Assembly (NCBI GenBank): GCA_030426955.1 | Contig: JAUHXS010000001.1 | Coordinates: 332,661-396,660 of the forward strand | Source: Bacteroidia bacterium | GTDB lineage: Bacteria; Bacteroidota; Bacteroidia; Chitinophagales; JAUHXS01 | Length of the DNA: 64,000 nt | Direction of reading: 5' to 3' | Shown: positions 4,801 through 39,818 of the stretch, piece by piece | Numbering within the stretch: the first letter of the stretch is position 1 | Layout: each line of letters starts with the position of its first letter | Notes under the pieces: generated by a model | Told to the model about the DNA's origin: nothing | The model's input: only the letters and a program-made list of their open reading frames with translations | Databases searched by the model: none | Made by a program: the position numbers and the translations under genes

Positions 4801-7800
4801 TAATGAGGCACTTCCGTTATTAAAAATGGCACCTCCTCTTCTCGCTATTGACGCAAAATATGTAGATGATATAGATACGATGGTATTGTTGGAATCCACA
4901 AATACAGCACCTCCATTTCTTAACGAAGAATCCCTTTGAAAGAAAACACTTTGTAAAACTAGGTTACCACTTCCCGTAGCAGGCATACCGATACCACCTC
5001 CATGAAATGCCCTGTTGTCCCAAAATAATGTATTAGCAATAAGAGCAATACTATTGGTTTCTATGTACATACCTCCTCCAACACTGTCTGCCTTATTAAA
5101 ACTCACATCAGATCCTGGCGTAACAAATAAGCTGTCATTCACATCTGATGTCTGGAAGTATACTCCTCCTCCATCTCGAGCAGAACGATTTTGGTTGATG
5201 TTAGTTGAGTCTATAACAATATAAGAGTTTCGAGCAAAGATACCGCCTCCACTACCTGTCAATGCTATATTTTCTCTAATAGTTGAGTTAGAAAAGACTA
5301 TTTCTTCAGCACCTGAAACCCAAAGCCCTCCACCGCGATTTGCAGCATTTCCTTGCCCAAAGTCACCTAAATTAGTCTCATCAATCAATATACTAAAACT
5401 TCCACCTAGGTTATCCGCAAACACAGCGCCACCTCTAATGGATGCCTGATTTTGCACTAGGTTACTATTTTGTATAACTAAGATATTGGTATCTCCAACT
5501 AAAGCTACCATAGCAACTCCTCCTCCTTGTGTGGCTAAGTTACTATCTACAACCATACTATCTAGAGTAGTAATACCTCTAAACCCACTGATAGCTAGTG
5601 CACCTCCTGAACCACTTGGAGAGGCTGAAGCATTATATTTTCTTATTCTAATACTCTTAAATACATTGCCTGAAGTTTGTACAAGAAAGGCACTTTTATC
5701 ATTAGCCCCATAAGTTGTTCCGTCAAATATTGTGTTGTGTACTCCACCGCTGATCACTCCATAAAAAACGGCAACGTCTGATGTAATTGTAGTATTGGTA
5801 TCAGGATATGTACCAGCATCGATAAATATCGTATCATTATTTAACACATACTGATCCAGTACAAATTGAACTGTCCTACAAGGATTGCTTGGCGTACCAC
5901 AACCTACAGCATCAACACCTGTTGCGGAAGTCCATTTTTCATCTCCTCCTAATACATCATTGACATAATAATTAGGTCCAAGTGTTTCGGGCATTTTGAA
6001 ATAAGGCGCTGAAAACTTTGAGGTATTCCCAGCACTGTCTTGCAATGCAGTTAAGCTATCCAAACCATTAGTACCATATACTCCGTATCCGTTAATAACT
6101 TTACTCCAGTTTCCAGTAGCATCTGCTAAAGTAGTATCTAGGAACGCCTGCCCTTCATGTGCAGAGTCACAATATATTTGTATTAAAGCATTTGGCGAAG
6201 CAGTTCCTGAAACAATAGTATCTGTACCCACGACAGTAACGTTGTTAATTTTTGGTGGCAATATACCTTCTTGTGCACCTGGATTAAAATCAATTCCCAA
6301 TCCAACATTCTGTGCAATAGAGTTTCCATGTATTAAATTGTCTTTGCCAAGCATATAAATTCCTCCTAATGAGTTTCCTCCTCTTATATTATTGGCTTGC
6401 ATTGGGTCAAAACCACCAATCTGATTAGAGTCATTAAAGATCAATAATGAAGCAGACCCTGCTGAGAAAACTGTAATACCATCTAAGGCTAATCCTATAT
6501 TATTATTATATAAAATGTTATGCTTAGATACAGATGTGCTAATATTCTCTCCATTATTTCCAGCAATTACGTTGCCCCCACCTACAACTGCTAGCCCTAT
6601 CTGATTACTATCTGCATCGATTGAAATACCCTGAAATCCATTTCCAAGAGCTACATTTCCAGTAACATCCGTCCCAATAAAGTTTCCAGATATAATATTG
6701 TTATGACAATTAGCACTGATTATATGGCAACCTCTCTCTGTATTAGCAGACAACAAGTTTCCTTGCCCAGGTATTCCAATATTATTATTAGATGCGCCAT
6801 TGTCAATCCTTACACCATCCAAAGCATTTCCGCTATCTGCTAATCCACTGTAATCTGTCCCTAGATAGTTAGATATTATAGTATTATTTCTTGCATTTAC
6901 TGTATTGATTAAAATTCCGCTAGCCGAGAATCTATTAATTACTAGCCCCTTAATCGTATTTGTACTACTTAAAATTTCAAGACCATTTGTAATGGGTCCA
7001 ACATTTGCTCCGTACAGTTCGACATCTGGCCTATTATTGTTATTTAAGTCGCCGTTTATATATGTGCTATCATCGATCAGATCAGGTAAAGCTGACAAAA
7101 TTGTGATGGTATGTCCCCCCATAGCAATGGTATCAAATGTGATTGTATCAGCTCCAAAGTTATTATTGGCATACCCTATTGCTCTTCTCAAGGTTCCACA
7201 GGAGGAATCATCAGCAGCAGAAGTAACCAGTAAAGGATTATTACAAATGTCAATAAAGAATTCTAACGAGAAGTCTGAGGTATTTTCTAAACTATCTTGA
7301 AGTGCTCGAAGTGTATCAACATTGGCAGGCAAGCTTGATAGGTCAATCTGAATACTCCAATCTCCTGCTGCATCTGCTCTAGTTGTATCTACAAAAATTT
7401 GCCCTTCAAAAGTAGAATCTGCATAAATCTGAATAAAAGCGTTTGGAGATGAAGTTCCAGAAAGAGTGCTGTCTGCAGAAAGGTTATTAATAATTGGCGG
7501 TTTTATATTTTCCTGTACTCCAGCTACCTGAAACCATATCGCACGATTAATGCCGTTGTCCCAGAACCTATTTTGATGCATCATATTTTTGGATGAAGCA
7601 GCAGATGGATATCTTATACCCGAGCCTTCATGATGTGCAATAACGTTATAGTTAATAATATTAGAGGACGACTGAATATTAATTCCATTCCCGCCTCCAA
7701 TAGTACCCATATCTATGGTTTCTGAAGTATCTGTACCTACGTAGTTGCCTCTAATAATGTTACTATCTCCAATTATTTCAATACCTTTTTGTCTTCCAAC

Positions 7801-10800
7801 AATTACATTATATTGATTTAATGAAGTATCTCCGATAATATTACCACTACTAGTTCCTGCTATACGTACGGCGACATTTACCAGGTCATTGATTGCGTTA
7901 ATCGGTCCGCTTAACGTAATATTCGTACCAATATAGTTTCCTATGACGATATTTCCCGATGAATTATTAAGTCGTATTTCACTTCCAAAACCTCCTCCCG
8001 TAGTGGCTCCTGCTATTAAGTTTCTTCCAACAAGAGTTCCATCGCCAATAAAGTTGCTATTTGCATCATTAATAGAAATTCCCAAGTGGCCTCTTCCTGA
8101 ATCAACCATACCAGAATAGTCGGTATTGATATAGTTTCCAACAATTCTATTTCGAATACTCCCTGCCCCTGCAATCTCTAAAGCAACCGAGTCAAATTGA
8201 TTTATGACGAGTCCTCTTATCTCATTATAAGAAGACTGAATACGGAGTCCTATTTCACTATTATTTAAACTCCCTCCCCAAATTTCTACATCTGGCTTTC
8301 CGTCCATACTTAGGTCGCCATTGATAACTGTAGAGTCATCAAATATGAGTGGCAACTGTCCATTTACAATAGCAATAGTATGTCCGCCCATAGCAACGGT
8401 ATCAAAAGTGATGGTATCGGCTCCTGGATTAGCATTGGCATATCCGATAGCATATCTCAAGGTTCCACAGGTGGAGTCATCAGCCGTAGAGGTAACTAAT
8501 AAAGGTTGCCCGATGCTGATATCTTGTCCATTATCGATTCCTATAAAGTTTGGATTTAGACTAATTGCTCGGACTCTATACCCTGTACCTGAGAGCATAC
8601 TAGGAATATTCACGCTAAATGTATCAGGCACATTAGGAAAACCAGTAATGGTATCTAAATTTGTCGGAGAAGCAAAGCTACCTGCGTTATCTGATATCTG
8701 AAAAATAAGTTCACTTGCGGCATTGTATGTATTCACAGCTACTACCACAGCCTCTAGATTGTCACCCTGGCAGTATAATAAACCTGAGAGCATTGTATCA
8801 ATATAAAGTGTATCTGCGAAAAATGCCTCGTATGCTCCTATATCCCAAATTCCTTTTTGAGGTCTTGCACTATCTACAATATCAACAATAGGCGCATTTA
8901 AACTTATTCCTCCATTATATGCTGGAGATAACGGATTAGCAATGCTAAAATCATTATTCATTGAGTCAACAAATATTGGATAGCTTGTTGAGCTATTAAA
9001 AATAGTTGCACCATTACTCATATTGTATATGGAATGATCAACTGTTATATTTCCACCCAGCACGTCAAAGTCAAAAGTTTCATTATTATAAACGATACTA
9101 TTAATAATATCTACTTTGGCAAATGTTTCTGTTACAACACCTCCTGAACTTGAGTTCGTAGAATAGTTGTCGATAATTGTAGAATTAACTATTTCAATGC
9201 CAGAACTACCAATTCCTTTAATTGCTCCATCGTCTCCAGCAATATTGTCATATACTAAGCAATTCTCAAGATAAACTGAGTCTGTAGCACCCAAAAACAC
9301 AACAGAGCCATCGTCTGGAGCTATATTATCAAAAAACTGTGATTGAAATACTTTTACAATGCCTCCAATTTTCATGGCTCCACCATCAGCAGCAGCATGA
9401 TTGTACACATAGTTGCTATCAAAAATACACTTTGTTATAATTGCTAGACCATCAGAAATTCTGACACCTGCGCCTCCATCATTTGGAGAAGAGGCTCTTA
9501 CCCTATTACGACTTATCGTAGAAGCTGTTAGTTTTAATGTATCTCCATCAAAGAAGAACACTCCTCCTCCTCCATTTGTTGAAATATTGCCATCTATATT
9601 GGTTGTATTTAAATTTGCATTTCCAACATGAACATAGATACCTCCTCCAAGCTGACCAGCAGAGTCTATATTTATATTACTATTTTGAATATTTAACTCA
9701 TTTCCAGCAAAATAGATACCTCCTCCATCGAGAGAAGCAACATTAGATGTAATTGCGCTGTTATTGGTTATAGTCAAACTATCTCCATTAAAATAGATTC
9801 CCCCTCCATTTCTAGCCCTATTCTTCTTGCCCGTAACACCGATTAAGGTATTATTCGTCATTAGTATATTTGCTCCTGTTGCTGCATACAAAGCACCTCC
9901 ATTTTCTTTAGCAAAGGAACTATCAATAACAGTTCCTCTCATTATCATTGGATTATTAGAAGATGTATATATACCGCCTCCATTATTATTTAGCGCAGCG
10001 TTCTGCTCAATAGCACATATGCTTATATCAACGTACCCATTCTCAATGTAAAGTGCACCACCATTGCTATCTGCTATATTTCCGCTTACAATAGCTGTAT
10101 CTAAACTTAGCGTATCTCCATCAAAATAAACTCCTGCACCGTTGTTTGCAGTATTAGCTAATGCTAGATTACCTATGGCCGAAAGGCCAGATATATACAA
10201 ACTAGCAGAACCACCGTTGTTAGCTACATATACTCCTCCTCCATTTCCTGTAGCATCATTTAACCCAATATCCGTATTATCGATATATACTCGTTGTGCG
10301 TTTTGACCATCAATATAAATACCTGCGCCGTCTAATGCAGCAGTATTGAGCCCTATATTAGACCTATTCTGGATTGTCGTACTATTTTCTGCCAAACTGT
10401 AAACCGCTCCTCCATTAGAAGCCTCATTACTTATAAAATAAGAGGTTCTTACTGTTAGATCATCCCCATCAAAGTAGATGCCTCCTCCATTTTGATTGGC
10501 ATAATTCCCCAAAGCCCCTATTCCTACTCTAGTAGAATCAGATATTAAGAGAACGGTATTATTGGTAGCATATATGGCACCACCATGACCCATTGCAGAG
10601 TCTCTTCTGAATGTTGTTTTACTGATAGTGGCATAATTATCATTTATATAGACGGCACCACCATTATCACTAGTTGTGTTTTTACTAAAAAGGGAATTGT
10701 TAATAATCAGTGTATCTCCCTCAAAGTAGATACCTCCTCCTCCTGAAACAGATTCATTACCATTAAGTGTCCCTATTTTTGAGTTTTCAACTTTAAGATT

Positions 10801-13800
10801 TGAAAATCCTCCGCGATCAAATGACCGTATTGCTCCTCCACGACCATTTGCATAATTACCATCTAATTTTGAATTTGACAAGTATAACGTAGCATCTGTA
10901 TTGGGTTTATTTTCAAACATAATACCTCCTGCACCTTGTGCTAAGTTATCAACAATTACAACTTCGTCGATAATACAATTGCCTTGAGCATTTTTTATTT
11001 TTACTCCTCCTCCTGCTGGTTCTGAAGCAATACCTCTAGAATCATAATTTTTTATCGTTACTTTTTGAAGATTTATCAATGTACTATCAAACCTAAATGC
11101 ACGAATCATATTCGTTCCTAGAATAGAGCCATCAAAAACTGTAAGAGACGAATCTGCACCTATAAACACTGCAGTATCGTCGTAATTGACCATAATATTT
11201 GCATCTGGGTATGATCCTGCATCGATGAATATGGTATCTCCTCCTAAAATATTATTATCTAAAACGTATTGCACTGTTCTACATGGATTTGATGGGCAAC
11301 CACAACCTGGCTCATCTATTCCAATATTTGTTGTAAACATGTCATTTGTACTTGATCCGTCATTTACGTAATAATTATTTGTATTGGCAATCGTAAGATC
11401 ATAGCCATTATCAGTGCTGGTTGCGGAAGGGACGGAAGACTGTATTCTTATTCGGTATGTGATGCCTGGAACTTGGGCAATTGGAATGACAACATTAATA
11501 AAACTATCCACATCAGACACAATCATACCAATTGTATCGGGTGAAGTAAAGCTTCCTCCTGCATCAGATAATTCAGCATAAAAAGTATCAAAAGGTATTG
11601 GTGGCCATTCTATTCCTGTAGAAGAGAAATATACCCGAAATGATTGTCCTTGGCAAAATACGGTGTCTTGCTTTTCTAAACTATCTACATCAAAGGTATA
11701 ACCAGGGCCATACATTGGTATGACTTGTTCCTGACGTCCTGTACTATTACCATCATATATGCTATAAATCGTATTCGATGATATATCAGCAATTGTAAAT
11801 GAGTCAACAGCCCAAGAACCCGATGCATTATTATTTCTATTGCCTAATCTAATCGAGGCTTCATTAACAGCACCATTAAGTTTTGGATTAGTCGTATAGT
11901 CCAGTTCATGTTTAATTAAACTGGTGTGATTACCAACTCGATAAGTTCCCCAATAGCCTGATAGCTCAAAACTATCAACTCCTGTGGGCAATACAATATT
12001 ATTAGGTGTATCTGACACAAAATATAGGTGCACACTGTCTGCTAACCCTGTTGGGAAAGCTTGTAAATTCATTTGTCCACTCGATGGGCTCAACATTGAT
12101 AGCATAGGAACTCCTGCATATGCAAACACACTTGTATCCCCTATTGGAGCAATCGAAAGTTGCCTGTCTGTATTCTCCGCATTTCGATAAAACCCATCCT
12201 TTCCTGTTACCAAATCTTCTAGAGTATCAATCAACCCGTCATCAAAACGCCAATAGGCTAAAAGCCTTGATTCAGCTGGATGATTATTGAGTGTTTTGTT
12301 ACACATATATTTTCGGATAATTGATTCTGGCATCAAAGTATCCCAAATTCTTACTTCATCAATATACCCATCAAAGTATTCACCCATCAATCTATTGGTT
12401 CCGATAAAAAGGCTATCACCAACAGTAAGGTCTTGTCCTATAACTGGGTCGGCAACGGTAACCTCAACAACCCCGTCCACGTAGAGTCTTGCAGTATTTA
12501 TAGACCGATCAACAGATAAAACAAGATGATGCGGCTGTTGGTCATCTATAATTGTGGAAGTAGAAATCACAGCAGTATTAAGCCCACCAAGTCCATCTCC
12601 TATTTCTGCTCCAAACGTATTGGTATTGACGACCAATTGGAATCCTTTCATATCATCAATGTTCAATATTTGATTTGCTTTTGACAACAAGCCAGTTACA
12701 GGGGTTTGAGGATCGTCAATTTTCACCCACATTTCAACGGTAAAATCTCTTGTAGTACCAAAATCCAAGCTAGCATCTGGAACAACAGCTACGTATTCAT
12801 CATTAGAACCTCCAGAATTAAATCGTGTTGCATAGCCTGAACCTGGTTCATCAGGATACGTTGAATTTGCGTATCCTAACACATACTCTGTTCCGTACTG
12901 ATAACCCGAAGAGATTGTATTGTTGTCGGTATTCGTTCTTAGCTGGCCTGATGCTCTTTTCCATGTATTATCAGCACCATTCTGCCTTTTCAACAACCTT
13001 ACTCGATCCTCATTGCCAGAACCATTTAATGGTGTACCCGTATAGTTATAGGTGGGCCTATAACCTGCATTGGCGTCTCCTACTTTAAAGACACCAACAT
13101 AACCTCCTTGATCGTATGAGCTTATCCCAGATGGTAATTGGTCGATTAATATACTATCATTCACCTCATATATATGCATGCCATCAATTGCGCCAGTGAA
13201 GTCTCCTAAACTAAGTACTCCCCCATTATCAAAAGTATAATTAACTGGTGAACCTCCATATAAATAGACAGAGGTATCTCCAAGAGCTGCACCTGAAGTC
13301 ACCCAGTCTGTTGCTGGATTCATGGCGTTTAATACTCCATGATTAGCATTCCCTGAATAGTCTGTCAAGGTTGTTCCAGTGGTGTCATCAAAACGATAGT
13401 ATGCAACTAGGTCGGAATATTTAGGATGCTTGTCAGTAACTTTCCGACACATCCAATTTCTAATTTCTGCAGTTGTCAACTCGCTCTCCCAAATACGCAC
13501 CTCGTCAATTTGGCCAGGAAAGTTTGACGTACCAAATTCTCTTGAGCCTATCGTAAGGTCTCCCGATGGGAATGCTGGAGTATTATTATTAGTTGCCCTA
13601 AGCTGTCCATCTACATAAATCTCCCAAGTACCTCCAGCTATTCTTCTAGTTGCAGCGAAATGTGTCCATTTATTTGGAGTTGGGATATATGCTGTTGAGG
13701 CACTTGTACCGTTACCTAGCCTAAAAAGTAATTGATTAGCAGCATTCATAAAAAAGCCATAGCCATTATTTGTGCTATGCCCATTCATCATAATATAGCG

Positions 13801-16800
13801 CACCGTTCCCGATCCAGTCCCATTCCATTTAAACCAAGCCTCTATCGTAACATCAATTAAACTAGTTGTTACAGTAGAACCAACATTCACATAGTCATCA
13901 TTTCCATCAAAATCCAATGCTTCTCCTGCTCCAGTTAATTCCAAAGGAGTTGAGAAATTTGATTCATAGGCACCTAAGTCAAAACCATTGCCTTTAGGAC
14001 GTATTGTATCGTTGATATCTACTGCTGGTGCTCCTGTAGCAGTTCCTACATCTATAGCAGGAGAGGCTTCTTGCAGAGTGTAATCATTTGTAACCGAACT
14101 ATTGAAAAGAGGATCTTGACCTGTTATGTTATTTCCATTATCTGTAAAGTCAGTCCCAGCAGATGCATTATCATATAATGAATATGAAACGTTTATCGCA
14201 CCATTTAATTGGCTAAAATCTCTTCCTGTATTGCCATAAAATATACTATTCTGAACATTGATAACATTACCAGTATTGTTAGAATATATTGCAGCATTAC
14301 TCGTATTTGAAACATTATCTGCAAAAGTACAGTTTGAAATACTTCCACTTCCTGAGTTATAATAGATTATACCTTGTGTTTCTGCAGTATCCTTATATAG
14401 CAGACAGTTTTCTAAAGTTACTGTTGCACTAGCATTATCAACCATAATAGCAGAACCATCGTCTTCTGCATAATTTTCATAAAATATCGTTTTAGAAATG
14501 TGTGCCTCCGTTGTATATGCTAATATTGCACCCCCATCGGCAGTATTACTTCCGTTATCAGTATAGTTATGGTGAATATCACACTCATCTATAATAACTG
14601 TTGAGCCTCCTGAAAACATAAAGGCTCCTCCTCCTTGACTGGCCATTGAGCTGTTGCCTGCTATTTCAGAATGATTAATCACTAATGAGTCCCCTATAAA
14701 ATGGATCGCTCCTCCCTGATTTGTCACACGATTGCCTTCACTTTGTGTACCTAATATTGAATTACTGATAATGATGTCTGATGAAGTCATCCCTCTTATT
14801 GCCGCTCCATTTGTGCTTGCATTATTTATAAACACTACGCTATCTGCTTCTAACCTAGCATCAGATGATAAATAAACGGCACCTCTTGTATTGTTGTCTA
14901 TAGTGATCCCATTAAGATATCCTCTACTACCTAATCCTCCCAAAAACAATGCTCCGCCACTATTTACTGAAATATTGTTTAAGAAATTTCCTCCTGAGAA
15001 TGTTCCTGTAGCGCCATTTGCTAGACATACTCCTGCGCCACTATTACTTACCTTATTTGCTTCAAATTGAGTGTTAATAGTTGTTATAGATTCGCTTGTA
15101 CCATCACCATATATTGCCCCTCCAGTACCTGACGTATCTCCCTTAAAGCTTGAATTTTCAATATATAAAAAGTCGCCAAACTGGTATATGCCTCCTCCAC
15201 CCGTATTTGCTAGGTTGCTATCAATATTACTATTTAGAATAATGGTAGGATCATTAGCATAGATACCCCCACCACGACTACCTGCATGGTTATTGCTAAT
15301 CCTAGAGTTGTTTATAAATACAGAATCAGAAACTGTATTGTAGTATATGCCTCCGCCATTAAGTGTACAATAATTGTTACTAATCTCAGAAGAGTCTATA
15401 AACAATAAATTGCAACTATTCACATATATCCCACCACCACTTCTAGAGGCTCCAGTAACACTATCGCCTGCGATTAAGGTTTTAGAAATCATCAAGGTGT
15501 CTCCATCAAAGTAAATGCCCCCTCCATGTCTTACCGACTTATTTCCATTTGATTTTTCTCCAATGATACCATTTTTAATGTTTGCATTATTGGTAGATCC
15601 GAAGTAAATTGCGCCACCCTCACCATTAACACCACTTGCCTCATTAGAGATAAATGTGTCGTTAGATGACAAATAGGTTACATTTGCAATATCAGGCATA
15701 TGTAGCCCTCCTCCATCACCGGTTGACTCATTATTATCAAATTTATTTCCAATTGATACTAATGTGTCTCCATCAAAGAAAACTGCTCCACCATTTACTC
15801 CTTTACACCTTTCAAAAGCACAATTAAGAAGGGTAAGTTCATCTGTTGTATTGGCATTAAAAAGAATAGCTGCGCCACTTGAGGCAAAGCCTGAAATATC
15901 ATAGTTTTTAACAGTAATATCACTAATTGTCATATTATGGCTACCTACATTGATCTGCATCCATCTGCCAATTACGCCATAGCTTGCACCATCGAAAGTT
16001 GTTGTATTTTTGCCAGCGCCCAATATTGTTACACCTTCATCATTTGCTGTCATAATTCCTTCATCCGTATAATCGCCAGCATCTACAAAAATGGTGTCCT
16101 TAAAAGTAAGATCATTATTGTCTAAAACATACTTCAAGCTACGACAAGGATGCCCTGGTTCTCCGCAACCTGGAACATCTGAGCCCACTATTGTGGTATA
16201 AATGTCTCCAGCTTGACTATTATCATTTACATAAAAGCCATTAGATGATTCGTATGCTCCAATGGTAGGAGGATCATTTCTTTCCTCTCCATTTATGTCT
16301 TCCTCAATGCTTAAGATGCTAAAACCTGCTTCAACAACAGGAGAGCCTTTTTCAAGATCTAAATTATTTCCAGTAGGGTCCAAAAATCGAGGATCTACTT
16401 CTAATGAATTTTCATCGCCATTATTTATGCCTTCTTCTGAGTGGTCTATAGTTGACCAAGTAGTGACATCTGGGTAATTCGCTCCATCAAATTGAACCAC
16501 TTCACCTCCAGGATTCCAAAAAACGTTATAATCACAGAAGTCAAACTTACTTGAACCAGTAATCTCTAAACAAAACTGCCCCCCACCTCCAGTTGTCTGA
16601 AAAATATTATTTCTAACATCCCATCCTAAGTTTGCTCCGCTGCTTCCGAAGTCAACACATGCTTCCATAGTGTAGAAGCTATTAAACTGTAGTGTATTGT
16701 CATTGGATACTCCTGCTCCTACTGCTATCCCCTTAACATTTTCACTGAAATAATTGTTAAATATTTCTGTATTTGTTGCACCGCCTGGCATATTCATGCG

Positions 16801-19431
16801 CAATCCTCTCCACCCCCTTATAAATCTAGACTTGCTAATTTCAGCAGAATCGACTTTAGTCAGGTCAAGCCCAATACTATTGCCTCCTGCAAAAGACAAA
16901 TCAAAAGTACACGATTCAACCTTGAGAAACCTTGCACGATTTGACATATCGTCTCCAGAAAAAGAAATGGCAGTAGGACTGGATGGACCGCTTAAAGAGA
17001 ATGTACATTGTGAAAAATATAAGTTATTTGAATTATTTCCCCCGATATTTTCAATTCGGATCATGTCTAAGTTTGCAGCGCTAAAAAAGCTACAATCTGA
17101 AAATGAGATATCTTCTGATTGAGCAATTCTAATTAAAGAAAGAGCTGCACCAACATTTTCAAACCTAATATTGGATATTTCATAACCCGAGGTATTGAAC
17201 ATATCCAATCCAACTCCAGATGCTTCTCTCCAGTTAGTAACTCCAGGGCCTGCTCCAATAATAACGACTGGAAAAGATTTTGATCCTGCATCTGCTATAG
17301 AAATATTTACATTTTCAACATAAGAACCCGCATCTATATATATGGTATCATTTTCATTGATATCATAATTATCAAAAATATCCTGAATTGATGTTATTGG
17401 GTCTGAGGGACTCATGCCAAAGTTGGTTCCATATGGTGCTCCAATAGCCGTAGTAAAAGTATCACCTGGAGTATTAAGATCGTTTACATAATATTTTCTG
17501 CTCGGAGGATTCGCTTCATGAGCACCCATCCAAAAACCCAAACGAGGTTTACCATCAACATCGTCAGTAATTACAGGAGAAAGATTTGCTGCGTTATCGT
17601 ACAATTCTGCGGGGGTCGTAACTGTCAGATAAAGCAAAGAATCATATTGATAGACTGGATCGAAAGATACAGAGCTTGCATCTTTTCCTGTAGCGGGCTT
17701 CCAAAGGGTTAAAGTCGGGTAATCTACTCCATCATAATGTCCTAAATTTGCAGAATTAGAAAAGTGATCATTATTATCTAAAACATTAACGGTAGTAGCA
17801 TTGTTTATAAATATGGCATATCCTCCTGTACCCTTATTATAAAATATGTTATTTTGAATGTTAATATTGTTACCAGAAGTAGGATAAGAAAACGCAGCTG
17901 CGTTAGGATGATTACTATTCGTAAGCACACTATTATTGTAAACATTTATATAGTCTGACCCAGCAATAAAGAGCGTTCTTGACTCAGCAGATGAGTTATG
18001 AATTGAAGCAAAGTTGTTAGCAATCAAACCCATTTGCCCAAGAGAGCCACTTCCTGAAGTAAAACTAATTGCAGAATGACCAGTATTAATTGATACTTTA
18101 TTATTTCTTGCTTCAAAATCGTAAGAGCATCGATCACAATAAATACCTCTATAACTTATAGTTGCATTGTCAGCAACAACTTGATTTTGAGTTATTTTAA
18201 TGGCAGTATGGTCTCCTAACTCCATCGCTCGATGTCTCTGGTTTCCAAAATAGCAACCATTAATTATTGTACCTAATGCATCAGCGGTCATTGTAGGGTT
18301 TCTAAAGTCTATTCCTATTGCTCCATTCAAGAAGTCACAATATTGAAATTCAATACTATCCTGGGTAAAACTGTCAACAGCAAAAACTAAAGCTCTATTA
18401 TCACCTGTAGAAGAAGTATTAAATGCTTCTATTGAACAGTCAGAAAACTTAATCTTTTTTGCAACTCCTTCCAATACAACTACCCTGCTGTAACCGAAAG
18501 GCTCTCCTAATGCTTTGAGGGTAAGTGCTTCGAAATCTACATATGGAGTTTCTATAATATCTACCACATAGTTACTGTCAGCTACGCTCGCTTGATACTG
18601 AACTACAACATCTTTTCTATCGTTTGTTGCAGAGCTAAAACTGATTGTTTTAGAAGGACTTGTTCCTACAATATTATCGAGTACAAATTGCTCATTATAA
18701 GTACCTGTAGCTACTTCAAAATTCACCTTACAGGCAACTCCAGGACCATTTGTTGGGCCACCATCAGACCTTGTTCCATAACTAAGATCTTCTGCTGCTG
18801 CAGAGAAAGTTCTATAATTGGTTGCACTTGCTGCTTGACTCCCATCAATCGTGTATTCTCCGAGCAAGCCACTTCCACCTGAATAATATACTGTAATTAA
18901 TATATGGTCTATATTTGCAGTTTGAAACCCGAACGTACCATTCTCCACACGGATGGCCACCCCAAAATCTGGTGAATTAACAATAGCAGACGTCAATGAA
19001 ACGCCCCAAGTACCATGACCACTGTAAGCAACATAGGCATCTGTAGACGGCCAAGGGGTAAGAGTTTTTGCATGATTACTCCCTGTTGGAGGCCCCGCAT
19101 CTTTGAGCAACTGCACGTCCGCATCTCTTATGTCAGTTCCTGCTGACTTTTCCATTACAACTACTACACTATCAATAGTGGCTCCATTAGGAATACAAAA
19201 TCCAAAATCTGTTACATAAAGCCAATAAGAAGACTGAAGAAATAAAGAGACATTTGCATGTAAATCATCACTTAAACCTATATTGAATGGTGTACTCCAT
19301 GCAACTCCTCCAGTTGCTACATTTGCCCCTGAACCAGCTGAATTAGGCCCTTGACTTTGTTGCGCACCAGCAATTCTTACTATAAAAAGCAGACAAACTA
19401 AAACCAGTAAGAATCTATATATTCTATGCAT
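1..19431 (-). CDS. Giant secreted multidomain beta-helix protein, C-terminus beyond window
   Basis: The frame opens at ATG 19431 and I find no stop in the parts I translated; it is still open at base 1, so at least 6477 codons lie here and the 3' end is missing. Residues 1-23 form a signal peptide (MHRIYRFLLVLVCLLFIVRIAGA). An N-terminal beta-sandwich-like domain follows (about 25-190), then right-handed beta-helix blocks (about 245-1050), a GGGIYF/GGAIY-rich Pmp-like helix (1065-1800), two LamG-like domains (about 1825-2035 and 2200-2400), another Pmp-like helix (2690-3510), two beta-helix modules opening with CGTLR.AI.YAN (3640-4475), a further Pmp-like helix ending in the choice-of-anchor style NPLF…D.GAFEF (4480-5310), NHL repeats (about 5480-5835) and Ig/PKD-like modules (5855-6477). 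Likely a surface or released adhesin-like T9SS cargo; a type B sorting domain is expected just outside the window but not seen. No catalytic residues are recognisable. Confidence 0.9.
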   Translation of the reverse strand, partial: MHRIYRFLLVLVCLLFIVRIAGAQQSQGPNSAGSGANVATGGVAWSTPFNIGLSDDLHANVSLFLQSSYWLYVTDFGFCIPNGATIDSVVVVMEKSAGTDIRDADVQLLKDAGPPTGSNHAKTLTPWPSTDAYVAYSGHGTWGVSLTSAIVNSPDFGVAIRVENGTFGFQTANIDHILITVYYSGGSGLLGEYTIDGSQAASATNYRTFSAAAEDLSYGTRSDGGPTNGPGVACKVNFEVATGTYNEQFVLDNIVGTSPSKTISFSSATNDRKDVVVQYQASVADSNYVVDIIETPYVDFEALTLKALGEPFGYSRVVVLEGVAKKIKFSDCSIEAFNTSSTGDNRALVFAVDSFTQDSIEFQYCDFLNGAIGIDFRNPTMTADALGTIINGCYFGNQRHRAMELGDHTAIKITQNQVVADNATISYRGIYCDRCSYDFEARNNKVSINTGHSAISFTSGSGSLGQMGLIANNFASIHNSSAESRTLFIAGSDYINVYNNSVLTNSNHPNAAAFSYPTSGNNINIQNNIFYNKGTGGYAIFINNATTVNVLDNNDHFSNSANLGHYDGVDYPTLTLWKPATGKDASSVSFDPVYQYDSLLYLTVTTPAELYDNAANLSPVITDDVDGKPRLGFWMGAHEANPPSRKYYVNDLNTPGDTFTTAIGAPYGTNFGMSPSDPITSIQDIFDNYDINENDTIYIDAGSYVENVNISIADAGSKSFPVVIIGAGPGVTNWREASGVGLDMFNTSGYEISNIRFENVGAALSLIRIAQSEDISFSDCSFFSAANLDMIRIENIGGNNSNNLYFSQCTFSLSGPSSPTAISFSGDDMSNRARFLKVESCTFDLSFAGGNSIGLDLTKVDSAEISKSRFIRGWRGLRMNMPGGATNTEIFNNYFSENVKGIAVGAGVSNDNTLQFNSFYTMEACVDFGSSGANLGWDVRNNIFQTTGGGGQFCLEITGSSKFDFCDYNVFWNPGGEVVQFDGANYPDVTTWSTIDHSEEGINNGDENSLEVDPRFLDPTGNNLDLEKGSPVVEAGFSILSIEEDINGEERNDPPTIGAYESSNGFYVNDNSQAGDIYTTIVGSDVPGCGEPGHPCRSLKYVLDNNDLTFKDTIFVDAGDYTDEGIMTANDEGVTILGAGKNTTTFDGASYGVIGRWMQINVGSHNMTISDITVKNYDISGFASSGAAILFNANTTDELTLLNCAFERCKGVNGGAVFFDGDTLVSIGNKFDNNESTGDGGGLHMPDIANVTYLSSNDTFISNEASGVNGEGGAIYFGSTNNANIKNGIIGEKSNGNKSVRHGGGIYFDGDTLMISKTLIAGDSVTGASRSGGGIYVNSCNLLFIDSSEISNNYCTLNGGGIYYNTVSDSVFINNSRISNNHAGSRGGGIYANDPTIILNSNIDSNLANTGGGGIYQFGDFLYIENSSFKGDTSGTGGAIYGDGTSESITTINTQFEANKVSNSGAGVCLANGATGTFSGGNFLNNISVNSGGALFLGGLGSRGYLNGITIDNNTRGAVYLSSDARLEADSVVFINNASTNGAAIRGMTSSDIIISNSILGTQSEGNRVTNQGGAIHFIGDSLVINHSEIAGNSSMASQGGGAFMFSGGSTVIIDECDIHHNYTDNGSNTADGGAILAYTTEAHISKTIFYENYAEDDGSAIMVDNASATVTLENCLLYKDTAETQGIIYYNSGSGSISNCTFADNVSNTSNAAIYSNNTGNVINVQNSIFYGNTGRDFSQLNGAINVSYSLYDNASAGTDFTDNGNNITGQDPLFNSSVTNDYTLQEASPAIDVGTATGAPAVDINDTIRPKGNGFDLGAYESNFSTPLELTGAGEALDFDGNDDYVNVGSTVTTSLIDVTIEAWFKWNGTGSGTVRYIMMNGHSTNNGYGFFMNAANQLLFRLGNGTSASTAYIPTPNKWTHFAATRRIAGGTWEIYVDGQLRATNNNTPAFPSGDLTIGSREFGTSNFPGQIDEVRIWESELTTAEIRNWMCRKVTDKHPKYSDLVAYYRFDDTTGTTLTDYSGNANHGVLNAMNPATDWVTSGAALGDTSVYLYGGSPVNYTFDNGGVLSLGDFTGAIDGMHIYEVNDSILIDQLPSGISSYDQGGYVGVFKVGDANAGYRPTYNYTGTPLNGSGNEDRVRLLKRQNGADNTWKRASGQLRTNTDNNTISSGYQYGTEYVLGYANSTYPDEPGSGYATRFNSGGSNDEYVAVVPDASLDFGTTRDFTVEMWVKIDDPQTPVTGLLSKANQILNIDDMKGFQLVVNTNTFGAEIGDGLGGLNTAVISTSTIIDDQQPHHLVLSVDRSINTARLYVDGVVEVTVADPVIGQDLTVGDSLFIGTNRLMGEYFDGYIDEVRIWDTLMPESIIRKYMCNKTLNNHPAESRLLAYWRFDDGLIDTLEDLVTGKDGFYRNAENTDRQLSIAPIGDTSVFAYAGVPMLSMLSPSSGQMNLQAFPTGLADSVHLYFVSDTPNNIVLPTGVDSFELSGYWGTYRVGNHTSLIKHELDYTTNPKLNGAVNEASIRLGNRNNNASGSWAVDSFTIADISSNTIYSIYDGNSTGRQEQVIPMYGPGYTFDVDSLEKQDTVFCQGQSFRVYFSSTGIEWPPIPFDTFYAELSDAGGSFTSPDTIGMIVSDVDSFINVVIPIAQVPGITYRIRIQSSVPSATSTDNGYDLTIANTNNYYVNDGSSTNDMFTTNIGIDEPGCGCPSNPCRTVQYVLDNNILGGDTIFIDAGSYPDANIMVNYDDTAVFIGADSSLTVFDGSILGTNMIRAFRFDSTLINLQKVTIKNYDSRGIASEPAGGGVKIKNAQGNCIIDEVVIVDNLAQGAGGIMFENKPNTDATLYLSNSKLDGNYANGRGGAIRSFDRGGFSNLKVENSKIGTLNGNESVSGGGGIYFEGDTLIINNSLFSKNTTSDNGGAVYINDNYATISKTTFRRDSAMGHGGAIYATNNTVLLISDSTRVGIGALGNYANQNGGGIYFDGDDLTVRTSYFISNEASNGGAVYSLAENSTTIQNRSNIGLNTAALDGAGIYIDGQNAQRVYIDNTDIGLNDATGNGGGVYVANNGGSASLYISGLSAIGNLALANTANNGAGVYFDGDTLSLDTAIVSGNIADSNGGALYIENGYVDISICAIEQNAALNNNGGGIYTSSNNPMIMRGTVIDSSFAKENGGALYAATGANILMTNNTLIGVTGKKNRARNGGGIYFNGDSLTITNNSAITSNVASLDGGGIYFAGNELNIQNSNINIDSAGQLGGGIYVHVGNANLNTTNIDGNISTNGGGGVFFFDGDTLKLTASTISRNRVRASSPNDGGAGVRISDGLAIITKCIFDSNYVYNHAAADGGAMKIGGIVKVFQSQFFDNIAPDDGSVVFLGATDSVYLENCLVYDNIAGDDGAIKGIGSSGIEIVNSTIIDNYSTNSSSGGVVTETFAKVDIINSIVYNNETFDFDVLGGNITVDHSIYNMSNGATIFNSSTSYPIFVDSMNNDFSIANPLSPAYNGGISLNAPIVDIVDSARPQKGIWDIGAYEAFFADTLYIDTMLSGLLYCQGDNLEAVVVAVNTYNAASELIFQISDNAGSFASPTNLDTITGFPNVPDTFSVNIPSMLSGTGYRVRAISLNPNFIGIDNGQDISIGQPLLVTSTADDSTCGTLRYAIGYANANPGADTITFDTVAMGGHTIAIVNGQLPLIFDDSTVINGDLSMDGKPDVEIWGGSLNNSEIGLRIQSSYNEIRGLVINQFDSVALEIAGAGSIRNRIVGNYINTDYSGMVDSGRGHLGISINDANSNFIGDGTLVGRNLIAGATTGGGFGSEIRLNNSSGNIVIGNYIGTNITLSGPINAINDLVNVAVRIAGTSSGNIIGDTSLNQYNVIVGRQKGIEIIGDSNIIRGNYVGTDTSETIDMGTIGGGNGINIQSSSNIINYNVIAHHEGSGIRYPSAASSKNMMHQNRFWDNGINRAIWFQVAGVQENIKPPIINNLSADSTLSGTSSPNAFIQIYADSTFEGQIFVDTTRADAAGDWSIQIDLSSLPANVDTLRALQDSLENTSDFSLEFFIDICNNPLLVTSAADDSSCGTLRRAIGYANNNFGADTITFDTIAMGGHTITILSALPDLIDDSTYINGDLNNNNRPDVELYGANVGPITNGLEILSSTNTIKGLVINRFSASGILINTVNARNNTIISNYLGTDYSGLADSGNALDGVRIDNGASNNNIGIPGQGNLLSANTERGCHIISANCHNNIISGNFIGTDVTGNVALGNGFQGISIDADSNQIGLAVVGGGNVIAGNNGENISTSVSKHNILYNNNIGLALDGITVFSAGSASLLIFNDSNQIGGFDPMQANNIRGGNSLGGIYMLGKDNLIHGNSIAQNVGLGIDFNPGAQEGILPPKINNVTVVGTDTIVSGTASPNALIQIYCDSAHEGQAFLDTTLADATGNWSKVINGYGVYGTNGLDSLTALQDSAGNTSKFSAPYFKMPETLGPNYYVNDVLGGDEKWTSATGVDAVGCGTPSNPCRTVQFVLDQYVLNNDTIFIDAGTYPDTNTTITSDVAVFYGVISGGVHNTIFDGTTYGANDKSAFLVQTSGNVFKSIRIRKYNASASPSGSGGALAISGFRGITTLDSMVVDSNLATQGGGVAMVALVGDTNILVIQNSNLVQNQASIRGGAVFADNLGGSFSILIDETNLGDFGQGNAANRGGGLWVSGAEEIVFSNSTIRENIALTGSGGGIFARNSYIVIDSTNINQNRSARDGGGVYFQTSDVNDSLFVTPGSDVSFNKADSVGGGMYIETNSIALIANTLFWDNRAFHGGGIGMPATGSGNLVLQSVFFQRDSSLRNGGAVFVDSNNTIVSISSTYFASIARRGGAIFNNGSASLSQNTIELNRTFNSAANSFGGGIYNAGRMTVGNTAIENNFAHHAGGGIFSGLNSDLYLINNTNVGAQFGGNKSFEGGGLYFNGDTLYAQDVSFEGDSANAGGAIYLARGNATLVSVRIDSNIARINGGGINQANNSSLLGLDDVSLIDNEANIGAGIYSFVPGGSIKILNSIIGNAAQGGNISNTSAGGIYFASDSLVIDSSDIAFNNASSSGGGIELAELANFFSISNSEIHDNNANVLGGGLWIRGSGYASKVRAYNNTSNRGAFLASSGNTGSDTFNLVNSLIYENIALIEAVIFDDEQVTNLLNTTIADNQSLGAAPLSGGIVTTGTGQISAFNTILHGNSVMDARENGGGAIIADHSIFDSISIGVVTTNSVNGNPLFTDAVNDDYTIDTSTSPAVNSGDNSYVAAISTDLDNNDRIIGGIVDMGAFEFVGATITIDSVSPDTTCAGTNLYVCFSKTGTFNLGNVFSVELSDSNGSFSSPTVIDTIIDTVGQCRFIDVPDTIPAGDGYRIRIVSSDPIITGLDNGTDIVITPSSSSAFTGLDSTYCTSSFLQILNPVNPGGTFFGVGIKFSVGLNKWYFDPEEAGIGTHIIGHVICDTTFDTTTILPAPCVDDVVNDSTEKAIKDPQGLFTDCDGQIYTTQPTWLVEVDTFGNASLIAGDSSTSGYRDGYAFDPIASKALMDQPFGIVKDPTGLIYFVDVNNHTVRLLRNDSVITVVGNGSAGTSVGPGVSARLSAPYGLCFSPSLDALYVAQEGGFAGAIPRVKRIDLLSGDYNVTNVIGGGGMDIALYGVNIAASDARLYRPRHIISDNDYLYIADEFRNAIYRYEYATDSITLYAGNPPFPGFTDGTLSEGAGQGGLWLPNGVSVTCNGEVFVADKQNQAIRKIDLSEDSLTTFAGALGISGDVTGSAEDARFNDPTAVSAFIKGFIDVADTRNNKIKRVSLVDWNVSPWNGLDSIYCTTDDPDTSTPFYVCNATYSGPGMSSSGVFDPAVAGAGLHTIQYNYTIGYCGSILTTTIRVVDGVEPQLQDTAYACGLDSVMLDVGLGFDSILWSTTDTTQTITVNTPGLYTVAVTDTNGCMSTDQTEVLPSTPPVVDAGNDTGICIGDTLVLGGIPTGSSAIGILSYQWTPDTFFVDADTVANPRVVALFDTTYIVTVADSNGCASIDTIDVVVNDRPNTNAGVDDTICSGDSIQLNSTASTGLMPYSYQWLPTDSLSNDTIANPWAYPIDTTDYIVTITDANGCSNADTVNILVLPGLTLSLTNDTGICLGDTTTLLAAVAGGTMPYSIQWTPSDSLDCDTCFFTMAWPTSTTSYIFTVVDTYLCSAQDSVQITVNANPIADAGADDSLCIGDTVLIGSLFGSSGGTSPYSYQWAPSDSLSNDTIFNPLAFPTTTTEYQLQVTDANGCIGVDSVNVRVDSLPTIAGAGVDTVLCNGTNLVLYGNTPLVGNGLWQILSGSGNLVDSSQPTTTINGLLFPDTIDLEWSISNGICPTSRDSMTIYNINPLDPNVVISVSPNDTICEGTSVTFSLSTAVDSGLTPSYQWLLNGVNITGATNIHYVTDSLKDGDSVQLIMTVSENCFIVQSDTSTTIQM
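1921..3000 (-). other. NHL-repeat block inside the giant protein
   Basis: The translation shows repeated strings of the form NGV.V…GEVFVADK.NQAIRKI, FAGALGISGD…A.F.DPTAV and QPFGIVKDPTG.IYFVDVNNHTVR. These are the hallmark of NHL six-bladed propellers. The block lies between the last beta-helix and the Ig-like array. Confidence 0.75.
3200..5995 (-). other. Pmp-like beta-helix F of the giant protein
   Basis: The block starts with the opener CG.PSNPCRTVQFVLD…DTIFIDAG.YPD near 5980-5740. It continues with many short turns ending in GGG(I/V/L)(Y/W/F) or GGA(V/I)(F/Y), the pattern of polymorphic-membrane-protein-like beta helices. It closes with NPLFTDAVNDDYTI…D.GAFEF and a beta-sandwich-like domain around 3510-3200 (DTTCAGTNLYVCFS…). 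Confidence 0.75.
6010..8520 (-). repeat. Tandem pair of beta-helix modules with CSLREA-like start motifs
   Basis: Two modules are arranged head to tail. Each starts with VTS(S/T)ADDS(S/T)CGTLR(R/Y)AIGYAN, then ADTITFDT.AMGGHTI and an INGDL segment (about 8500-8260 and 7240-6990). Each is followed by repeats of the N-N-I-I-G-N-x-I-G-T-D type. The start motif resembles the CSLREA family (C-S-L-R-E-A-I..AN), with GT replacing S and R/Y replacing E. The pair looks like an internal duplication. Confidence 0.7.
8880..11365 (-). other. Pmp-like beta-helix D of the giant protein
   Basis: The opener CGCPSNPCRTVQYVLDNN…GDTIFIDAGSYPD lies near 11310-11210. About twenty turns of the GGGIYFDGD / GGAVY type follow, down to about 8880. 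The organisation matches the block at 3500-5995, and the two openers are nearly the same, so these blocks probably arose by duplication. Confidence 0.7.
12240..13990 (-). other. Two LamG-like (concanavalin A fold) domains of the giant protein
   Basis: The first domain (13960-13330) reads LDFDGNDDYVNVG…IEAWFKWNG…IYVDGQLRAT…LTIGSREFG…GQIDEVRIWE…TEIR-type sequence and ends with LVAYYRFDD. The second (about 12850-12240) reads FTVEMWVKIDD…ARLYVDGVVEV…LFIGTNR…GYIDEVRIWD and ends with LLAYWRFDD. This is the standard LamG_3 layout. The folds usually bind carbohydrate or protein ligands. Confidence 0.8.
14010..16240 (-). other. Pmp-like beta-helix C of the giant protein
   Basis: The opener CGEPGHPCRSLKYVLDNNDL…DTIFVDAGDYTD lies near 16170-16060. 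Turns of GGGIYFDGDTL, GGAIYFG and related type follow, down to about 14010, where a closing D.GAYESNF segment leads into the first LamG domain. Confidence 0.7.
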
Positions 19432-19661
19432 TCAAGAAAAAAGTCTAAAAAAATAGACATGATTTTTCGGTCAACAAAGGGCTAAAATAAAGAAAATATA
19501 TACTTAAGTCAACACATATTGACATTATTAATAAGAAATTGTTGAAAACAATTATTCACCAAAAACAAAACGGTGCAGATCAAACAAATAAGTTAATTAC
19601 GACACATAATAATATCAGTTGATTCGCAAGTATGCCTAAAGCAAAACAACACTTGCCTTTC

Positions 19662-19697
19662 TCTTGATCAAAATAGTTTAAACTATTTTGATCAAGA
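19662..19697. promoter_or_regulatory. Perfect 36-bp palindrome in the divergent intergenic region
   Basis: The half-site TCTTGATCAAAATAGTTT (19662-19679) is followed directly by its exact reverse complement (19680-19697); symmetry breaks at 19661/19698. It lies in the 336-bp space between two divergent genes, the giant protein (start 19431) and the small secreted protein (start 19768). Its right arm contains TTTG at 19687-19690, the likely -33 element of the downstream gene. A dimeric repressor operator is the best guess. It could also form a terminator-like RNA hairpin, but there is no spacer loop and no T-run after it. The rest of 19432-19661 shows only short, weak inverted repeats. Confidence 0.75.
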
Positions 19698-19720
19698 ATT
19701 GGTATAACTTGTACCTTAGC
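19687..19720 (+). promoter_or_regulatory. Bacteroidota-type promoter for the small secreted protein
   Basis: TTTG (19687-19690) and TACCTTAGC (19712-19720) are separated by 21 bases. This matches the TTTG / TAnnTTTG arrangement with one mismatch in the -7 box. Transcription would start near 19725, which argues against the GTG at 19726 as start codon and for the ATG at 19768. Confidence 0.5.
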
Positions 19721-19767
19721 ACGCTGTGAGAATAAACAATAAAAAATCACGTTATTGTTGTGGATTG

Positions 19768-20337
19768 ATGTGTCAGTTTAGAAGTATAGTATTAATTGTA
19801 TTTACATCACTTTCTTTTGTAAGCCTTGCTCAAAAGAAAGATGCCATGCAATGTACTTTTTTCAACAAAGACCATATTGACGAGGTTTTAATATTGGGCT
19901 ATCATCAATTAGACCATAAATTCTTTCAGTTTGGCATAGGCAGCGTTACCTCTCAACTAATTTATCCTAAAGCTGGAGGCAGATACTTGGCTACTGGACC
20001 TATTATAAGCTCAATATCCATGTCATTGGAAGCTAGATTGCTTGACAGCCTATTAATTGCACCACAATTATCTTACTGGTCTAATGACTTTTTTGCAGTT
20101 ATGGGATTACGGAATATCAAATATGGACTCAACTTAATCACATATACCAATACTAATGATGGCAACTTAGTATTAAGACCTGAAATCGGTTTTGTAAATT
20201 ATTTTGATTGGATGCCTTTCAAAGGTGGATATGCAGAAATCGTATATGGGCTGAATATTCCAGTTTTAAACCCAAAGTTTCAAGGATATAATAAGCCGCA
20301 TAATTTGGCAGTAAGATTTTACTTAAAGTATAGATAG
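19768..20337 (+). CDS. Small secreted protein, possible outer-membrane beta-barrel, unknown function
   Basis: From the ATG at 19768 the protein is 189 residues and begins with a signal peptide (MCQFRSIVLIVFTSLSFVSLAQ). An in-frame GTG at 19726 would add 14 residues but falls at the predicted transcription start, so I prefer the ATG. The mature part has alternating hydrophobic strands (LLIAPQLSYWS, IKYGLNLITYTN, LVLRPEIGFVNYF, YAEIVYGLNIPVL) and ends in AVRFYLKYR, compatible with a small 8-strand outer-membrane barrel. I do not recognise the family. The gene stands alone between the giant gene (divergent) and purM (same strand, 140 bp downstream). Confidence 0.75.
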   Translation: MCQFRSIVLIVFTSLSFVSLAQKKDAMQCTFFNKDHIDEVLILGYHQLDHKFFQFGIGSVTSQLIYPKAGGRYLATGPIISSISMSLEARLLDSLLIAPQLSYWSNDFFAVMGLRNIKYGLNLITYTNTNDGNLVLRPEIGFVNYFDWMPFKGGYAEIVYGLNIPVLNPKFQGYNKPHNLAVRFYLKYR

Positions 20338-20465
20338 GTTTAGTTCAAAGTTAGAAACTCACGTTATACTGGCAATTATATTACATTTACACATACAGCT
20401 TAAATAAAAGCGAATCATATTAATATAAGTTGATAAGTTGTACGAAATATAAATGTATTGATGAT

Positions 20466-20473
20466 TAACTTTG
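20466..20473 (+). promoter_or_regulatory. -7 box abutting the purM start codon
   Basis: TAACTTTG is a perfect TAnnTTTG match that ends only 4 bases before the purM ATG. No well-spaced TTG -33 element is visible (nearest 25 bases upstream). If active, the transcript would be leaderless or nearly so. Confidence 0.45.
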
Positions 20474-20477
20474 TTTC

Positions 20478-21644
20478 ATGTCAAATCTGAAATATTCTCA
20501 AAGAGGGGTTTCCGCGCAAAAAGAAGATGTTCACGCAGCTATAAAAAATGTAGATAAAGGGCTCTTCCCTAAGGCGTTTTGCAAGATAGTGCCAGACTAC
20601 TTAGGAAACTCAGAAGAGCATTGTATTATTATGCATGCAGATGGTGCTGGAACAAAATCTTCACTTGCATATGCTTATTGGAAAGAAACTGGAGATTTAT
20701 CTGTTTGGAAAGGAATTGCTCAAGATGCACTGGTTATGAATATCGATGATCTATTGTGTGTAGGTGCAACTGATAATTTCATGTTGTCGTCAACGATAGG
20801 GAGAAATAAAAATCTTATTCCAGGAGAGGTTATTTCGGCTATTATAAATGGTACAGAAGAGCTCATTAGAGAGCTAGAAGTGTATGGCATAAAAATTCAT
20901 TCTACAGGTGGCGAAACCGCAGATGTGGGCGATCTAGTTCGCACCATCATTGTTGACTCAACAGTCATAGCAAGAATAAAACGAGCTGATGTTATTGACA
21001 ACGCAAATATTAAGTCGGGGAACGTTATTGTTGGACTAGCGTCATATGGTCAAGCCACGTACGAAAATGCTTATAATGGAGGAATGGGAAGCAATGGACT
21101 TACTTCTGCAAGACATGATGTGTTTAACAAAGAGGTTGCAGATAAATATCCTGAAACTTATGACCATGCTGTGCCTAAAGATATCATTTATTCAGGTTCA
21201 AAAAAATTGACAGATGCTGTAGATGACAGTCCGCTAGATGCTGGAAAATTAGTTTTATCCCCTACTCGAACTTACGCACCCGTCTTAAAAGAGATCATCG
21301 AAAAATATAAATCTAATATTAGTGGCATGGTTCATTGTTCTGGAGGGGCACAGACAAAAGTGCTACATTTTGTAGACAAACTCCATGTCATAAAAGATAA
21401 TATGTTCCCTATCCCACCTCTCTTTAAATTAATAAAAGAAGAGTCAGGTACCGATTGGAAAGAAATGTACCAAGTATTTAATATGGGGCATAGAATGGAA
21501 ATATATTGCGATGAGCAAATAGCCAGTGACATCATTGCTATTTCTAATAGTTTTAATATTGATGCACAAATCATTGGAAAAGTAAAAGAATCAGAAAGTA
21601 AAAGACTTACTATTAATAGTGAGTTTGGGACGTTTGAGTATTAG
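20478..21644 (+). CDS. purM: Phosphoribosylformylglycinamidine cyclo-ligase (AIR synthase)
   Basis: Catalyses the ATP-dependent ring closure of FGAM to aminoimidazole ribonucleotide, the fifth step of purine synthesis, in the cytosol. The 388-residue protein has the PurM/AIR-synthase fold: SQRGVSAQKEDVH at the N-terminus, the glycine-rich HADGAGTK at 53-60, the metal/ATP-binding MNIDDLL at 87-93 and GGETADVGD at 144-152. It is the longer Bacteroidota-type PurM, with the N-terminus conserved in that group, so the ATG at 20478 is secure even though the promoter box touches it. It is followed 45 bases later by an epimerase gene and is not in a pur operon here. Confidence 0.93.
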   Translation: MSNLKYSQRGVSAQKEDVHAAIKNVDKGLFPKAFCKIVPDYLGNSEEHCIIMHADGAGTKSSLAYAYWKETGDLSVWKGIAQDALVMNIDDLLCVGATDNFMLSSTIGRNKNLIPGEVISAIINGTEELIRELEVYGIKIHSTGGETADVGDLVRTIIVDSTVIARIKRADVIDNANIKSGNVIVGLASYGQATYENAYNGGMGSNGLTSARHDVFNKEVADKYPETYDHAVPKDIIYSGSKKLTDAVDDSPLDAGKLVLSPTRTYAPVLKEIIEKYKSNISGMVHCSGGAQTKVLHFVDKLHVIKDNMFPIPPLFKLIKEESGTDWKEMYQVFNMGHRMEIYCDEQIASDIIAISNSFNIDAQIIGKVKESESKRLTINSEFGTFEY

Positions 21645-39781: not shown

Positions 39782-39818
39782 AAAAGCTTCTCCTAAGAAA
39801 ATGGGAGAAGCTTTTTTT
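39782..39818 (+). terminator. Rho-independent terminator between DUF4295 and ftsY
   Basis: A perfect 12-bp stem (AAAAGCTTCTCC at 39782-39793 with GGAGAAGCTTTT at 39804-39815) has a 10-base loop and runs into a tract of seven T. It ends 15 bases before the ftsY ATG. It either ends the ribosomal operon or partly attenuates read-through into ftsY, since no separate promoter fits between it and ftsY. Confidence 0.85.

Follow-up and report, generated by a model that had tools for sequence, protein, structure and literature searches.

The window analysed here, a stretch of 64,000 nucleotides, contains a perfect palindrome of 36 bp in the intergenic region between a giant adhesin-like gene and the gene for a small exported protein. 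The features of this locus, with positions counted from the first letter of the window, are as follows.

1 to 19431, minus strand: giant T9SS adhesin-like gene, assigned by domain matches and running past the window start to G000:C5:328299
19642 to 19649, minus strand: weak candidate -7 element for the adhesin gene, TTGTTTTG, agreeing at 5 of 6 positions, spacer 19
19662 to 19697, no strand: perfect palindrome of 36 bp with zero spacer, defined by the sequence and its base-composition expectation
19664 to 19671 and 19688 to 19695: TTGATCAA, a palindrome nested in the larger one, once in each arm
19669 to 19672, minus strand: candidate -33 TTTG toward the adhesin gene, inside the left arm, the mirror of that in the right arm
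19677 to 19682: TTTAAA, nested palindrome at the centre of the 36 bp
19686 to 19707, plus strand: 22 nt matching a tRNA gene promoter (G000:C18:112594-112615) at 21 of 22 positions, E 0.012
19687 to 19690, plus strand: candidate -33 element (TTTG) for the small gene, located in the right arm, by the consensus given in PMC6847099
19712 to 19719, plus strand: candidate -7 element of the small gene, TACCTTAG, a match at 5 of the 6 positions of TAnnTTTG, spacer 21
19768 to 20337, plus strand: gene for a small exported protein of 189 aa, from its likely ATG

The earlier note had placed the palindrome in a divergent intergenic region, which is borne out by the gene starts: the adhesin gene begins with an ATG at 19431 on the minus strand, and the small gene with its likely ATG at 19768 on the plus strand, its longest frame beginning with a GTG at 19726. 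No open reading frame longer than 56 codons lies in the 336 bp between the two. By its coordinates the giant adhesin comprises about 7,930 aa; laminin-G/concanavalin, beta-helix, Ig, and PKD domains are matched by segments of it, and a T9SS type B sorting domain by its C terminus. The next gene after it encodes a PorP/SprF protein, with a match above the curated cut-offs, and is followed by a gene for a 704-aa protein whose similarity to PorE and OmpA-like models stays below the cut-offs. The arrangement of these genes resembles that of sprB-sprF.

The small exported protein belongs to no Pfam or NCBIfam family at an E value of 0.001, and a search of 395 other genomes of the order gave a single homologue (34% identity), in G261, which is from another family. 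No inverted repeat (arms of at least 8 bp, spacer of up to 8) was present in the upstream stretch searched at that locus (L158), but the locus is no test of the gene pair, since the upstream neighbor of the homologue is co-directional and not divergent. The strand-rich sequence suggests that the protein may be an outer-membrane barrel, and "small outer-membrane-barrel-like protein" is possibly a better term than "small secreted protein". A structure prediction from the single sequence was unusable (mean pLDDT, 31.8). As to the wider neighborhood, a Pfam scan of 16 neighboring proteins (2 of which matched no family at all), drawn from the genes before 39833 and without the L156 genes, revealed neither a DNA-binding nor a recombinase family. 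Among the best 80 matches of the neighboring PurM-like gene, identities are 76 to 80%, mostly to Flavobacteriaceae, which suggests a position of the organism within or close to Flavobacteriales.

With respect to the palindrome itself, we could confirm that an 18-bp half-site is followed immediately by its exact reverse complement. The arms (19662 to 19679 and 19680 to 19697) are 18 nt each, 0 nt apart, and 100% complementary, and the symmetry ends at the 36-bp border, beyond which 6 of the next 30 position pairs are complementary. No other zero-spacer perfect palindrome in the 64-kb window has arms longer than 7 bp. The longest in a 400-kb sample of the same genome has arms of 11 bp, which makes it the runner-up across the 464 kb of window and sample combined; five inverted repeats in the sample have perfect arms of at least 14 bp and spacers of up to 12. 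By base composition, the expected number of 36-bp palindromes is 3e-6 in 64 kb; for 3.4 Mb it is 1.7e-4, rising to 5e-4 if the composition of the intergenic region is used. This null model is too simple in that inverted repeats arise nonrandomly in genomes. On this composition-based expectation of about 2e-4 to 5e-4 per 3.4 Mb, the claim that the palindrome is unlikely by chance holds: the dyad symmetry of 19662 to 19697 exceeds chance, as is asked of an operator.

The palindrome is also a singleton. At up to 3 mismatches, the 36-mer has no second copy in its own genome (23 contigs, 97.4% complete), and its 32-mer core is absent from 395 other genomes of the same order; among the 58 nearest other genomes, none is from the same family. 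The earlier note had named many copies at gene ends as an outcome that would refute its reading, and this outcome did not occur: neither a repeat family nor a gene-end element was found. The single copy also speaks against a dispersed palindromic repeat (REP- or MITE-like). A relaxed 26-base pattern matched nothing in viral contigs and nothing in genome contigs, two collections from which records of this or very near genomes were possibly left out.

Searches for related sites gave a similar picture. Within the window, the 16-nt half-site shows no enrichment: with up to 3 mismatches allowed, it has 6 matches including both arms against 3.1 expected, and 5 of 100 shuffles reach 6. Across the genome, the 18-mer half-site (up to 2 mismatches) and the relaxed dyad (up to 3) were found at 3 and 5 further places, respectively, whereas the reversed pattern, used as the control, gave 2 places in each search; seven of the eight further places overlap frames of at least 201 codons, and the eighth (L010) overlaps frames of 75 and 96 codons. 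Paired TTGATCAA, at up to 2 mismatches, occurs at 16 further places against 3 for its reversed control, and we rejected it as a site family because the 4 places checked all lie in frames of at least 183 codons, because 2 others are the known in-frame places L012 and L013, and because the reversed control contains CTAG, a tetranucleotide that is rare in many genomes. The comparison with frames covered these 6 of the 16 places. The inner 20-mer, at up to 3 mismatches, matches 7 additional places (control, 2), every one of the 7 at 3 mismatches; 5 overlap a frame, and L164 and L169 lie outside frames. None of the genome-wide searches (36-mer, half-site, relaxed dyad, paired TTGATCAA, and inner 20-mer) yielded a convincing second site. 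Literature searches, judged by titles and the beginnings of abstracts, gave no paper on such a perfect-palindrome operator in Flavobacterium.

The position of the palindrome relative to promoter elements is central to its interpretation. As described in PMC6847099, the Bacteroidota promoter consensus consists of TTTG at -33 and TAnnTTTG at -7; in Flavobacterium johnsoniae, the -7 element is nearly invariant and the -33 element much less evident, the two free positions of -7 are virtually without G, and leaders average 33 nt. The genome studied here seems to use this promoter type, as 8 of 31 tRNA upstream regions (from 35 tRNA matches, with the tRNA-Ser region picked beforehand for its similarity to the window) score 9 or 10 of 10, compared to 2.7 expected from shuffles. 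Upstream of the small gene, a sole candidate scores at least 9. It agrees at 9 of the 10 scored positions, combines the TTTG of the right arm with TACCTTAG, and implies a leader to 19768 of about 44 nt; a -7 element of 5/6 or better occurs in 8.4% of shuffled right flanks. The tRNA gene whose promoter matches the window at 21 of 22 positions was read by eye as tRNA-Ser and has the elements TTTG and TAACTTTG with a spacer of 22. This match is supportive and not proof, since the segment has its next-best match within a coding gene. In line with the earlier note, the right arm contains the TTTG of a plausible candidate promoter of the small gene. Sigma-70-type promoter sites in the region, 9 in number, are close to the shuffle mean of 6.4.

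Two further observations concern promoters and leaders. The tRNA-Ser-like promoter at L116:1500-1560 shares its 21 of 22 nt with the window segment, and the shared stretch extends into the spacer that separates -33 from -7. At 19735 to 19759, where the leader of the small gene is predicted to lie, inspection by eye showed AACAATAA/TTATTGTT, a short inverted repeat whose 8-bp arms enclose a loop of 9 nt.

On the adhesin side, the palindrome automatically presents a mirror TTTG, and this opens the way for another hypothesis, in which the arms supply the -33 elements of two outward-facing promoters whose polymerases compete for the same 36 bp, so that expression would be mutually exclusive with or without a regulator. 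The mirror TTTGs and the 5/6 candidates for -7 on both sides, at spacers of 19 and 21, are consistent with such a back-to-back core, the left-flank candidate being equaled or bettered in 13% of shuffled flanks. However, TTGTTTTG has another base in place of the nearly invariant A, and one of its free positions is occupied by G, a base almost absent there in F. johnsoniae (PMC6847099); the leader to the adhesin gene would be about 200 nt, far from the F. johnsoniae average. Closer to the adhesin start there are two candidates that score equally, at 19588-19560 and 19478-19448. The adhesin-ward mirror promoter is the weaker of the two. Moreover, a shared core requires TTTG in each arm but not 36 symmetric bases, and we therefore consider this hypothesis improbable. 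The same low estimate applies to the stronger idea that one binding event switches, by coupling through the symmetry, between the giant T9SS adhesin and the small outer-membrane protein in a mutually exclusive manner.

Inverted repeats elsewhere provide the background against which the divergent setting has to be seen. PMC10434271 reports an abundance of inverted repeats near the regulatory regions of bacteria in general. By simple longest-ORF gene calls, the 33 inverted repeats with arms of at least 10 bp and spacers of up to 10 in the own-genome sample and the window divide into 11 in frames, 11 between co-directional genes, 6 between convergent genes, 4 labeled divergent (the present palindrome, L098, L105:12809, and L114), and 1 unplaced. 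L105:12809 owes its label to the caller, as the frames show it to lie where a 90-aa gene, read as rpsO, ends. Of the own-genome repeats with arms of at least 14 bp, L101:5431 is situated between convergent genes and L097:10917 and L109:11100 between co-directional genes; the fourth is L105:12809, and the fifth, L105:12337, is unplaced. In 80 Flavobacteriales loci (854 kb), we found 43 repeats with arms of at least 14 bp and spacers of up to 6, simple AT repeats having been dropped. Ten of these lie at locus edges, and the other 33, again by simple longest-ORF calls, comprise 19 convergent, 13 co-directional, 1 in-frame, and 0 divergent cases, in loci where 96 of 537 intergenic regions are divergent.

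Three of the individual repeats deserve description. L097:10917-10955 has perfect arms of 18 bp and a spacer of 3, lies near a Fic-like frame, and appears by eye to be in a small minus-strand frame. L109:11100-11146, with perfect arms of 20 bp and a spacer of 7, is found 15 bp upstream of an open reading frame that reads as an AAA-type ATPase. In the window, the inverted repeat at 39782 to 39815 has arms of 12 bp and a spacer of 10, is followed by a T-run 17 bp before the gene at 39833, and is terminator-like.

A terminator, or an RNA hairpin in some unseen transcript that crosses the intergenic region, would make use of the same symmetry. If transcribed, the palindrome would form a full hairpin of -19.0 kcal/mol, and the DNA-strand fold has a z of -6.3, but the stem is G+C-poor and no T-run follows it, unlike in an intrinsic terminator; the segment from 19300 to 20500 contains 0 terminator-like sites. 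Moreover, no Rfam match occurs near the palindrome (a single sub-threshold one lies in the next gene), and the setting is divergent, with no open reading frame above 56 codons in between. We regard this explanation as very unlikely. A mobile-element or site-specific recombinase site, be it a relict insertion, a resolution site, or an inversion site, is favored by the perfect symmetry only and is the least likely explanation of all: the palindrome is a singleton whose relaxed pattern is absent from viral contigs, the intergenic region gave short weak matches (up to 15% of the query) against plasmid and phage collections, and the 16 scanned neighbors include no recombinase family.

The main rival, and a serious one, is a mutational palindrome without a dedicated function: during replication, a template switch in intergenic DNA that was free to evolve would have turned one arm into a reverse-complement copy of the other in one step. 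Template switching is able to make perfect stems in a single event, as described in PMC8794818, and the perfect symmetry, the sharp border, and the singleton status all fit such an event. The genome also has other long perfect inverted repeats, among them L097:10917-10955 in its apparent small minus-strand frame. Against this, the palindrome coincides with the strongest promoter candidate that the small gene has, and the next-longest zero-spacer palindrome in 464 kb has arms of only 11 bp. We hold this origin to be possible rather than probable. Should it apply, the locus would offer a clean case of a perfect palindrome that arose in one step within a promoter region.

The reading that fits best is that of a cis-acting control site, the operator of a symmetric regulator, to which we give about an even chance. 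It accounts for an exact 36-bp dyad that is not expected by chance, for a divergent context in which none of the 33 placed long Flavobacteriales repeats lies, and for the absence of terminator-like sites from the region. The small gene's best promoter candidate is in register with the right arm and has its tRNA-promoter match, in a genome that seems to be of the Bacteroidota-promoter type. Nevertheless, the chance is kept at even because no DNA-binding family is encoded among the 16 scanned neighbors, where a linked regulator would be usual but not obligatory, and because no second site was found, the half-site and relaxed-dyad extras falling mostly inside frames. Further points against an operator are that the -7 candidate deviates at one of six positions, at the shuffle frequency given above, that short matches to a promoter segment also arise by chance, and that the genome has other repeats labeled divergent. 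Of the repressor-operator layout proposed in the earlier note, the divergent genes and the TTTG of a plausible promoter in the right arm are supported, and the operator itself is a reading from sequence at that even level. In this scenario, a dimeric or paired-dimer regulator encoded elsewhere would bind the palindrome, occupy the -33 region, and keep RNA polymerase from the promoter of the small gene; the same bound regulator would perhaps also affect the adhesin promoter. An operator at this position would provide a handle on the switching of a giant T9SS adhesin, or of its outer-membrane neighbor, in this lineage.

Palindromic operators that overlap divergent promoters are a known general class. 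The palindrome shares with them the dyad, the position over what are here candidate promoter elements, and the divergent genes, and differs from them in that no regulator is found among the scanned neighbors, no second site was found, and the perfect zero-spacer symmetry is unusually long. The terminator-like stems of Flavobacteriales, which appear to be bidirectional, are long inverted repeats at convergent or co-directional gene ends, most of them with an A-tract. The palindrome is like them in the length and perfection of the inverted repeat, but it lacks A/T tracts at its borders, is G+C-poor, and lies between divergent genes. Compared to the Bacteroidota primary promoter, as described in PMC6847099, the candidate upstream of the small gene has TTTG and TACCTTAG at a spacer of 21 in common; the free positions of TACCTTAG are likewise without G, as in F. 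johnsoniae, and the difference consists of one mismatch in the -7 element.
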